Assembly: GCA_944326725.1 (NCBI GenBank)
Contig: CALVFA010000002.1
Span: 1-34,115, forward strand
Direction: 5' to 3'
Origin: an uncultured Elusimicrobiales bacterium
Lineage (GTDB): Bacteria > Elusimicrobiota > Elusimicrobia > Elusimicrobiales > Elusimicrobiaceae
Length of the DNA: 34,115 bases
A program made the position numbers and the translations under genes. This document shows, piece by piece, positions 26,237 to 28,589 of the stretch; the first letter of the stretch is position 1, and each line of letters starts with the position of its first letter. The notes under the pieces were generated by a model. It had not been told where the DNA came from and did no database searches. It saw only the letters and a list, made by a program, of their open reading frames with translations.

Positions 26237-26255
26237 TAAGCTTTTTATAAGAAAA

Positions 26256-26281
26256 AACCCGCCTGTTTGGGCGGATTTTTT
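26256..26281 (+). terminator. Rho-independent terminator of def
   Basis: CCGCC-TGTTTG-GGCGG followed by ATTTTTT; short stem but good T run. Confidence 0.8.
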
Positions 26282-26391
26282 ATGCGGCGGAGAAGGGGGT
26301 GCCTATCAGGAGATTGCTTTTGTTTAGCAAGGCCAAAAACAAAACCGTCTGCGCTTTTGAGAAACGCCCCCAACCTTTTTGTAAAAAATGA

Positions 26392-26420
26392 TTGCACTGC
26401 AGCAAAATTTTTATTATACT
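26392..26420 (+). promoter_or_regulatory. Promoter of the lysine leader-lysA-lysC unit
   Basis: TTGCAC (26392-26397), 17-nt spacer, TATACT (26415-26420). The ATG of the leader ORF is 6 nt further on, so it is leaderless. The best matched promoter of this type in the window. Confidence 0.75.
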
Positions 26421-26426
26421 AAACCC

Positions 26427-26522
26427 ATGGTACTGATTCTTTCCGTTAAACGTGTAAGCAAACAGAACAAGGGCAAGAAATGCTCTTGCGCTTTTGCTTG
26501 CAATTTGGCGGAAACGGATTAG
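26427..26522 (+). CDS. Lysine-rich leader peptide (candidate attenuator peptide for lysA)
   Basis: 31 codons from ATG 26427 to TAG 26520-26522. Codons 8, 12, 15, 17 and 18 are Lys (AAA, AAA, AAG, AAG, AAA); the region reads VKRVSKQNKGKK, followed by a Cys-containing SCAFACN. It has no ribosome binding site; a -10 box sits 6 nt upstream, so translation would begin at the mRNA's 5' end. The next features are a strong terminator (26553) and lysA (26599). A run of the end-product's codons, position and promoter all fit a ribosome-mediated attenuator. No family is known to me, as leader peptides are not conserved in sequence. Confidence 0.65.
   Translation: MVLILSVKRVSKQNKGKKCSCAFACNLAETD
26473..26489 (+). 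promoter_or_regulatory. Leader RNA hairpin over the Lys codons
   Basis: GCAAGA (26473-26478) pairs with TCTTGC (26484-26489) with a 5-nt loop. It overlaps the last Lys codons and would be blocked by a ribosome stalled there. It could act as the pause hairpin of the attenuator. Confidence 0.5.
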
Positions 26523-26571
26523 CCGTATTTTAATTTAACAGACCGATTTGAACCCCCGCTTGATTGCAAGC
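26496..26571 (+). promoter_or_regulatory. Candidate antiterminator pairing of the lysA attenuator
   Basis: GCTTGCAAT (26496-26504, inside the leader ORF) is the exact reverse complement of ATTGCAAGC (26563-26571, loop plus 3' arm of the terminator). With G-U pairs it extends to 13 pairs. A ribosome at the leader stop would cover the first segment and let the terminator form; one stalled at the Lys codons would leave it free. Confidence 0.5.
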
Positions 26572-26581
26572 GGGGGTTTTT
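26553..26581 (+). terminator. Attenuator terminator between the leader ORF and lysA
   Basis: Perfect 10-bp stem CCCCCGCTTG/CAAGCGGGGG, loop ATTG, then TTTTT. It lies 30 nt after the leader stop and 17 nt before the lysA ATG, upstream of the gene it would control. Confidence 0.9.
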
Positions 26582-26598
26582 ATTGGAGAGGAGAGCCT

Positions 26599-27861
26599 AT
26601 GTGTTTCCATTATGAAAACGGAGAATTATACGCAGAGGGGGTAGCGCTGGAGAAAATAGCGCAGGAGGTGGGCACGCCCTTTTATTGCTATTCTTACAGC
26701 AAACTGGCGGCTAATATCGCCGCGTACCGCCGTGCGCTGGAGCCTTTTCACAGTGAGGTGTGCTATTCTGTCAAAGCTAATTCTAATTTGGCTGTCGTGT
26801 CTGCGGTGGCGGCACTGGGCGGCGGGGCGGACGTAGTGTCCGGCGGGGAGCTGTTTTTGGCGCTAAAAGCGGGGATTTCTCCGGACAAAATTGTATTCTC
26901 CGGCGTAGGCAAAACAGAACAAGAGCTGGAGCAAGCCTTGCGCCACGGCATACGGCAGATTAATGTGGAGTCGGCAGAAGAGCTGCAGCTTTTGGCGCGC
27001 GTGGCCCAGCGCACCGGTACGCGGGCCAATGTGGCGCTGCGCGTCAACCCGGATGTGGACGCCTTGACCCACGTCAAAATTACCACCGGCAAAAAAGAAA
27101 ATAAATTCGGCGTGCCCTGGCCGGAAGCGCATGAACTCTACCACGCGGCGGCGCAGATGCCTTCTTTGCGGGTGTGCGGGATTGCGGTGCATATCGGTTC
27201 ACAGCTGTTGGATTTGGAGCCGTTCCGCCTGGCCTTTACCCGCATAGCGGCTATGGTGCGCGCACTGGAAGAAGACGGCCTGAGTATTGAAAACATTGAT
27301 TTGGGCGGCGGTTTGGGGATAAATTACAATGTGGAGCTTCCGCCCACCTGCGAGGCGTATGCCCAGGTGGTGCGCGAAACATTGGGCGAGTTGGACAAAC
27401 ATATCATCGTGGAGCCGGGCCGTTCGGTGGTGGGCAATGCCGGCGTGCTGGTTACTCAGGTGCTGTATACCAAACAAACCGAGCAGAAACGTTTTGTCAT
27501 TGTGGACGCGGGTATGAACGACTTAATCCGCCCCGCCATGTATGACGCCTGGCACAGCATTTTGCCGGTGCACCGTGCGGGTACGGCCCCGGTGGTGGCC
27601 GATATTGTGGGGCCGATTTGCGAATCGGGCGATGTGTTTGCCAAAGAGCGCATTATTGAGCCTGTGCAGTCAGGCCGTCTATTAGCTATAATGTGTGCTG
27701 GAGCGTATGGCGCGGCGATGGCTTCGCAGTATAATTTCCGGCCGCTTCCGGCTGAAGTGATGGTGCGCGGCAACGAATATGCCATAGTGCGCCGCAGAAG
27801 CAGTTATGAAGAAATGCTGGAAGGCCAAAGCGTGCCTTCTTGGACAGGTGAACAACAATGA
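26599..27861 (+). CDS. lysA: Diaminopimelate decarboxylase
   Basis: 420 aa from the ATG at 26599, preceded by GGAGAGGAG; the frame runs upstream to 26548 across the terminator, so the upstream start is not used. Fold type III PLP enzyme: the PLP Lys is in CYSVKANSNL, the phosphate-binding parts are VHIGSQ, LGGGLGINY and EPGRSVVGNAG, and the active-site Cys is in GPICESGDVFAKER. It turns meso-diaminopimelate into lysine, the last step of the pathway, and also affects the peptidoglycan precursor pool. The TGA overlaps the lysC ATG. Confidence 0.96.
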   Translation: MCFHYENGELYAEGVALEKIAQEVGTPFYCYSYSKLAANIAAYRRALEPFHSEVCYSVKANSNLAVVSAVAALGGGADVVSGGELFLALKAGISPDKIVFSGVGKTEQELEQALRHGIRQINVESAEELQLLARVAQRTGTRANVALRVNPDVDALTHVKITTGKKENKFGVPWPEAHELYHAAAQMPSLRVCGIAVHIGSQLLDLEPFRLAFTRIAAMVRALEEDGLSIENIDLGGGLGINYNVELPPTCEAYAQVVRETLGELDKHIIVEPGRSVVGNAGVLVTQVLYTKQTEQKRFVIVDAGMNDLIRPAMYDAWHSILPVHRAGTAPVVADIVGPICESGDVFAKERIIEPVQSGRLLAIMCAGAYGAAMASQYNFRPLPAEVMVRGNEYAIVRRRSSYEEMLEGQSVPSWTGEQQ

Positions 27862-28589
27862 GCAAACAGATTTGCATTATGAAATTCGGCGGCAATACGC
27901 TGGCCAATAAACAAAAACTTCTGATGGCGGCCCAGTTAATAAAATCCCGCTATGACAAAAATTTCCTGCCGGTGATTGTGGCTTCCGCCAACGGCAACTT
28001 GACCGATGTGCTTTTGGACCATGCCTACAGCATCAGCCGCAACCCCGATAAAAGAGAGCTGGATATGCTGGTAACGACCGGGGAGCGGGTCAGCGTGGCG
28101 CTTCTGTCTATTGCCTTGCGCGATATTGGGGTGCCTTCTGTGTCTTTGACCGGCAGCCAAATCGGCCTGATTACCACTTGCGCCCATACCGGGGCGGATA
28201 TTTTGACGCTTAAAGGCGACCGCCTGGTGCGTGAGCTGGAAGCGGGGCACGTGCCCGTGGTGGCGGGGTTTCAGGGAATAGGGGAGAATAAAGAAATTAC
28301 CACGCTTAAGCGCGGCGGGTCGGACGTGTCTGCGGTGTTTTTAGCCAGCCAGCTGGGTGCTACGCATGTGGAAATGATTAAAGATGTGGACGGCGTCTAC
28401 AGCGCAGACCCCAACAAAGACCTCAAAGCCCAAAAATACGAAGTGCTGGATTTTGATGAAATGTATAAGCTGGCCTTAAACGGCGCCAATGTGCTGCACC
28501 CGGACGCGGTGCGCCTGGCTAAAGAGAAAGGCATAGAAATACGCATTGTTCATTACCAAACCGGGCAGACCGGAACGGTGATTAAATAA
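27858..28589 (+). CDS. lysC: Aspartate kinase, catalytic domain only
   Basis: 243 aa, the amino acid kinase domain only. Motifs: MKFGGNTLANKQKL (usually KFGGTSV), LVTTGERVSVALL, LKRGGSDVSAVFLA and EMIKDVDGVYSADPN. Ordinary aspartate kinases run to 400 aa or more with two ACT domains that bind lysine or threonine; here the chain ends right after the kinase core (IRIVHYQTGQTGTVIK). The enzyme would phosphorylate aspartate, the first step towards lysine, DAP, threonine and methionine. It overlaps lysA by 4 nt and shares its leader. With no ACT domain, feedback by lysine would have to come from elsewhere. Another member of the kinase family with a different acid substrate cannot be excluded. Confidence 0.82.
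   Translation: MSKQICIMKFGGNTLANKQKLLMAAQLIKSRYDKNFLPVIVASANGNLTDVLLDHAYSISRNPDKRELDMLVTTGERVSVALLSIALRDIGVPSVSLTGSQIGLITTCAHTGADILTLKGDRLVRELEAGHVPVVAGFQGIGENKEITTLKRGGSDVSAVFLASQLGATHVEMIKDVDGVYSADPNKDLKAQKYEVLDFDEMYKLALNGANVLHPDAVRLAKEKGIEIRIVHYQTGQTGTVIK

Follow-up and report, generated by a model that had tools for sequence, protein, structure and literature searches.

The lysA locus

The window, as we call the whole 34,115-nucleotide stretch analysed here, is contig C2 of the 1.44 Mb genome of an uncultured Elusimicrobiales bacterium. Its forward strand, on which all features described below lie, carries lysA (26599..27861), encoding diaminopimelate decarboxylase (TIGR01048, 503.8 bits). 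The closest relatives of this LysA belong to the Elusimicrobiota and include that of Candidatus Avelusimicrobium excrementipullorum. The genome is placed in the Elusimicrobiaceae (Candidatus Avelusimicrobium), among gut bacteria of the Elusimicrobiota and not among the Proteobacteria. The gene has its own Shine-Dalgarno sequence, AGGAG (26589–26593), and is preceded by a leader that comprises a putative promoter, a short lysine-rich open reading frame (ORF), alternative RNA hairpins and an intrinsic terminator, and that very probably acts as a transcription attenuator responding to lysine.

The stop codon of lysA is overlapped by a gene (27858..28589) that the initial annotation called lysC. 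Its 243-residue product is indeed an aspartate kinase, but the match is limited to the catalytic part of the family, with no ACT region. In 12 searched genomes of the Elusimicrobiaceae this short, ACT-less form was the only clear aspartate kinase, and no longer copy was found, so that ACT-type feedback by lysine seems to be absent from them. With an aspartate kinase that lacks the feedback region, and no other one found in any searched genome, lysA and its neighbour are fitting targets for attenuation.

For comparison we used 295 genomes of the phylum, among which 30 genomes of the same genus as the window (genus g1) possess lysA. The leader element precedes lysA in all 30, the copy in G174 being split over two contigs. 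More divergent Lys-rich leaders with the same architecture were found in other genera, in G249 and G305 (MVNLISLKKAGIKIMGIKKSPYLSACDFVGK, MLTATVLKKAGKMTMGLKKAPYTFACDFADR) and in a genome taken to be that of Elusimicrobium minutum Pei191 (lysine leader L112, MLKNAKKTDSVKKGSKKTLGA).

Promoter and leader ORF

The initial annotation described a -35-like element TTGCAC (26392..26397), a 17-bp spacer, a -10 element TATACT (26415..26420) and, after exactly six nucleotides, an ATG at 26427; all of these are in place. TTGC recurs at about the same position in nearly all leaders, and the gap between a -10-like hexamer and the ATG is exactly 6 nt in 30 of 32 leaders and 7 nt in the other two (26 of the 30 were recognized by a script, and four with TAAACT or TACACT were read by eye from printed sequences). 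None of the 32 leaders has a Shine-Dalgarno sequence before the leader ATG. This promoter geometry points to a transcription start on the A of the ATG or beside it, which would make the leader ORF leaderless. The initial annotation expected such an arrangement to be unusual, but it has precedents: trpL of Sinorhizobium meliloti is a leaderless leader ORF (PMC10117765, PMC7298713), and mycobacterial poly-Cys short ORFs (sORFs) are likewise described as leaderless where PMC9094748 cites Canestrari 2020.

The ORF (26427..26522) has 31 codons, encodes MVLILSVKRVSKQNKGKKCSCAFACNLAETD, ends with a TAG stop codon at 26520–26522 and is conserved in all relatives that have the element. It contains lysine codons at positions 8 (26448), 12 (26460), 15 (26469), 17 (26475) and 18 (26478), the five that had been listed originally. 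Taken alone, five lysines in 31 codons is weak evidence (P = 0.035, relative to 5.9% Lys in the proteins of the window). Among 36 leaders, Lys17 and Lys18 are invariant, each position being AAA 24 times and AAG 12 times; Lys12 is kept in 35 and Lys15 in 34. The leader thus shows the clustering of codons for the regulated amino acid in a short ORF that is typical of attenuators.

Alternative RNA structures

The intrinsic terminator (26553..26581) reads CCCCCGCTTG-ATTG-CAAGCGGGGG-TTTTT. As reported in the initial annotation, its stem is a perfect 10-bp helix (26553–26562 with 26567–26576, loop ATTG) followed by a T run and then by the lysA Shine-Dalgarno sequence. A GC-rich stem followed by a T run occurs at this place in all relatives, and the stem covaries, as expected of an attenuator. 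An outer stem around the terminator (for example TTTGCAACGC...GCGTTGCAAA) is seen in one subgroup of leaders (L093, L091, L092, L100, L102, L109 and L005).

A second fold, which excludes the terminator, involves a segment within the leader ORF that we call region 2 (GCTTGCAATTTGGCGG, 26496..26511). The exact complementarity noted earlier between GCTTGCAAT (26496–26504) and ATTGCAAGC (26563–26571) is present, and the full target of this pairing is GATTGCAAGC (26562–26571), that is, the terminator loop and part of the 3' arm. Applied to the whole alignment, RNAalifold returned unprompted a consensus consisting of this antiterminator and a small apical hairpin, P1. It also added a segment that the initial annotation did not contain, in which GCGG (26508–26511) pairs with CCGC (26556–26559) in the 5' arm of the terminator, so that antiterminator pairing can begin on the 5' arm, ahead of synthesis of the 3' arm. 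The pairing of region 2 with the terminator loop and 3' arm is formed in 96.0% of alignment cells, compared to 33–52% in slid controls. Five of its pairs have changed on both sides, and 21 cells carry such double changes, as opposed to 5.2 in shuffles; the variants include GCUUGCAAUU/GAUUGCAAGC, GCUUACAAUU/AAUUGUAAGC and GCUUGUGCUU/AAGUACAAGC. In E. minutum the antiterminator comprises 13 contiguous pairs (UGUAAUUUUGCGA with UCGUAAAAUUACA). A mutually exclusive antiterminator of this kind is a further hallmark of attenuators.

Region 2 can also pair with region 1 (26440..26461), forming a long 1:2 hairpin over the ORF, which had gone unnoticed in the initial annotation and which would serve as the protector known from other attenuators. 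The 1:2 helices are formed in 86.6% of cases, compared to 35–48% in slid controls, with swaps from U-A to A-U among the changes. The leader of the window folds with -69.1 kcal/mol (z = -9.3), and none of 200 shuffled sequences folded as well; the ORFs of individual relatives gave z values of -2 to -7. The leaders examined are predicted to fold into the long hairpin, and in nearly all of them the loop of P1 holds the Lys17 and Lys18 codons. A small hairpin on the lysine codons had been proposed at 26473–26489. This hairpin is real, but conservation favours the register 26468..26488, which is the P1 used here (94.9% of cells paired, three pairs changed on both sides).

Conservation of codons and of RNA

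Comparison of relatives, which the initial annotation had recommended, showed that the lysine codons, the distance from promoter to ATG and both pairings are kept while neighbouring codons drift. Insertions and deletions within the lysine-codon part are multiples of three, so the reading frame is preserved. The C-terminal half of the leader peptide, CSCxFAxNFAD, is well conserved too. However, leader L111 has a 1-nt shift 3' of the lysine codons that places region 2 in another frame with its RNA unchanged, in L156 the leader stop codon precedes region 2, and in E. minutum region 2 is located 3' of the stop codon. Together with the AAA/AAG swaps and the 3-nt indels, these cases indicate that conservation acts on the codons themselves at the lysine positions and on the RNA, not the C-terminal peptide, in the downstream half. 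The leader of E. minutum has kept the lysine density and almost none of the primary sequence.

A covariance model of the element scored 98–186 bits for nearly all intact lysA leaders, and no match above about 37 bits was obtained in the sampled genomes of the genus that lack lysA. Wherever inspected, strong matches precede lysA, with the exception of the contig-broken copy in G174 and of an orphan in G298. The model also gave many weak matches elsewhere in the family, scoring under 40 bits; of 19 that were inspected, none proved to be a Lys leader, and nearly all were ordinary terminators. The genes upstream of the element differ between the relatives that carry it.

The orphan (L157/L196, G298:C23:12279–12433) is a lysine leader with its terminator that has no lysA behind it and is followed by a convergent gene, in an assembly with 6% contamination. 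It could be a remnant left when lysA was lost, or else an attenuator RNA that stands alone.

Modelled switching and proposed mechanism

To represent a ribosome we kept a footprint of 29 bases unpaired, and we truncated the RNA within the 3' arm of the terminator, shortly after its start. In this state, with only the initial half of that arm transcribed, stalls at codons 3–16 gave a mean antiterminator probability of 0.91–1.00 over 25 leaders, and stalls at codons 24–31 gave at most 0.06. With no ribosome, or with a ribosome at the stop codon, most leaders are predicted to form the protector. When the complete leader was folded to equilibrium with the 29-nt mask, no switch appeared; it emerged once the 1:2 hairpin and the nascent 3' arm were modelled. 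The initial annotation had proposed that a stall caused by lysine shortage frees region 2 and breaks the terminator. In the model, stalls at Lys8, Lys12 or Lys15 do free region 2, by way of the broken protector (codons 5–12 with region 2), and stalls at Lys17 and Lys18 have this effect only in part.

Based on the sequence comparison and these models, we estimate a probability of about 90% that the element is a ribosome-mediated transcription attenuator sensing lysine through a leaderless leader peptide. The leader ORF is presumably translated, with ribosome stalling coupling it to lysine supply. Transcription would start at or beside the first base of the leader ATG. A ribosome would load on the 5' end of the RNA without a Shine-Dalgarno sequence. 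When lysine is plentiful, this ribosome would reach the stop codon, and region 2 would then either be partly covered by it or re-pair with region 1; with region 2 masked or protected, the terminator would stop transcription short of lysA. If charged tRNA-Lys runs short, a stall at Lys8, Lys12 or Lys15 would cover region 1 and leave region 2 free to pair with the terminator as it is made: GCGG would bind CCGC in the 5' arm, and GCUUGCAAUU would bind the loop together with the half of the 3' arm that is transcribed first. The terminator would not form in time, and lysA and the aspartate kinase gene would be transcribed.

Several results of the modelling count against this mechanism. At Lys17 and Lys18, the best-conserved tandem, stalls gave antiterminator probabilities of only 0.53 and 0.30. 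The protector is not cleanly favoured without a ribosome at the partial stage in E. minutum and in leaders L087 and L089, and a ribosome at the stop codon still leaves the antiterminator at 0.79 in L086 and 0.69 in L112. In most relatives the terminator prevails at equilibrium when its 3' arm is complete, and does so even if a ribosome is stalled; antitermination would therefore have to be kinetic, decided during transcription, which marks a limit of the model.

Alternative explanations

Many lysine genes of this class are controlled by the L-box, and the leader RNA is far more stable than its shuffled versions (z of -9.3), as would be expected if the long hairpin were a lysine-binding aptamer and the ORF incidental. 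Yet no Rfam family matches the leader: no match to the L-box (Lysine family) or T-box models was found, either at the gathering threshold or at E values up to 1, and two leader-peptide families scored below half of their gathering scores (His_leader 23.4 of 49 bits, Trp_leader 20.2 of 41 bits). The survival of lysine identity through AAA/AAG swaps and of the frame through 3-nt indels, as well as the retention of lysine density in E. minutum with almost no primary sequence, make a riboswitch very improbable. A leader peptide that controls translation of lysA or access of Rho, instead of the intrinsic terminator, appears comparably improbable: the outer stem of some relatives, such as that of L093, does reach towards the lysA Shine-Dalgarno sequence, but it is confined to a subgroup, and the GC-rich covarying stem with its T run occurs in all relatives.

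A role in trans for the released leader RNA or peptide, besides or instead of attenuation in cis, would resemble rnTrpL/peTrpL of S. meliloti and could account for the conserved CSCxFAxNFAD end and for the orphan leader. We consider it unlikely, given that the antiterminator and the 1:2 pairing already explain the C-terminal conservation, that L111 with its changed frame, L156 with its early stop and E. minutum lack the conserved peptide end, and that the orphan comes from a contaminated assembly. Terminators are common in the genome and the lysine count alone is not striking, so one might suppose a constitutive terminator of the upstream gene next to a chance ORF, with no regulation at all. 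However, the upstream gene, for peptide deformylase, already has its own terminator (at ~26255–26283), and two mutually exclusive covarying folds conserved across genera, behind differing upstream genes, effectively refute this explanation.

Methionine leaders and other amino-acid operons

In G305, a weak match of the Lys-leader model was located upstream of metY, the gene for O-acetylhomoserine sulfhydrylase. The leader there is rich in methionine (MNRNLSTAMMINASAMMNMMRPPSFAFRINF), and its ATG lies 6 nt after a -10 element. Met-rich leaders of the same design precede metY in E. minutum (MQKNLSNKAMMMSMSAMMSMMRMHSFAFRINF) and in three more genomes. These five leaders (L197, L198, L199 of E. minutum, L200 and L201) have about 6–9 internal Met codons and a terminator and antiterminator arranged as in the lysine design. 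In the same ribosome model, run with stated terminator stems, a ribosome stalled at the first Met codons releases the antiterminator. The metY leaders thus argue for leaderless leader-peptide attenuation as a habit of the family: Elusimicrobiaceae probably use it for general control of amino-acid genes, at least for lysine at lysA and methionine at metY, with one design and a start on the 5' AUG.

Other possible targets gave no further cases. We did not find trpE in the 8 genomes examined for it, and in ilvB and thrC, which are present in some genomes, the scan revealed no leaderless leader with a terminator. hisG was found only in E. minutum, whose his genes are controlled by HisR (PMC9413887).

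Relation to known systems

Known attenuators act on trp, his, leu, thr, ilv and phe genes in Proteobacteria, on trp and leuS in Actinobacteria and on his in some Firmicutes; before the Firmicutes case of Naville and Gautheret (PMC2965389), leader-peptide systems were known only in the former two phyla. With these the lysA leader shares a short ORF containing codons for the regulated amino acid, a 1:2 protector, region 2 as antiterminator, a 3:4 terminator and a biosynthetic gene downstream. It differs in its amino acid, lysine, in its phylum, in the lack of a Shine-Dalgarno sequence before the ORF and in the reach of region 2, which pairs with the terminator's 5' arm, its loop and half of its 3' arm. 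The trpL of S. meliloti and the mycobacterial poly-Cys sORFs place a regulatory ORF at the 5' end of the RNA, as proposed here, but belong to other amino acids and phyla, and the mycobacterial cys leaders, unlike the lysA leader, have no obvious intrinsic terminator (PMC1262725). No RNA structures were found for lysine or methionine operons of Actinobacteria (PMC1262725). The L-box riboswitch and the lysine T-box likewise control lysine genes in cis through RNA, whereas the lysA leader would sense lysine by codons. Another candidate leader peptide of the aspartate pathway is SEP5 of S. meliloti, an sORF that precedes the gene for an aspartate dehydrogenase and contains six Thr codons and three Lys codons; this role was only suggested, with no analysis of terminator and antiterminator (PMC10117765).

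The initial annotation knew of no described lysine leader peptide of this kind, and none was reported in the literature searched. We do not claim that the present one is the first for lysine: a lysine leader peptide reportedly exists for the α-aminoadipate gene cluster of Thermus thermophilus, in a different pathway and phylum.

If the proposed mechanism is correct, lysine and probably methionine, whose known control elsewhere is mainly by riboswitches or T-boxes, would join the amino acids sensed by stalled ribosomes. Leader-peptide attenuation would extend to a deep-branching, mostly uncultured phylum in which it was previously undescribed, and leaderless initiation would be built into a regulatory switch. 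It would also explain how, without the allosteric domain usual in aspartate kinases, the pathway can still be subject to feedback by lysine. The genome taken as that of E. minutum carries both putative attenuators and this organism is cultured, so the idea is directly testable.

Distribution and origin of lysA

In the sister genus g2, most of the other lysA genes lie 3' of a gene for an ABC-transporter ATPase and have no leader. No comparable leader was detected upstream of alphaproteobacterial lysA genes, whose proteins are ~50–56% identical; K-rich short ORFs occur in 7 of 71 upstream regions, and several of these are lipoprotein-like. LysA proteins of the window's genus show up to 56% identity to alphaproteobacterial LysA vs 51–55% to that of genus g2, and these similar identity figures hint at horizontal transfer. 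Within genus g1 the gene is patchily distributed, and at least 20 genomes have neither lysA nor the leader, which suggests repeated loss accompanied by lysine auxotrophy.
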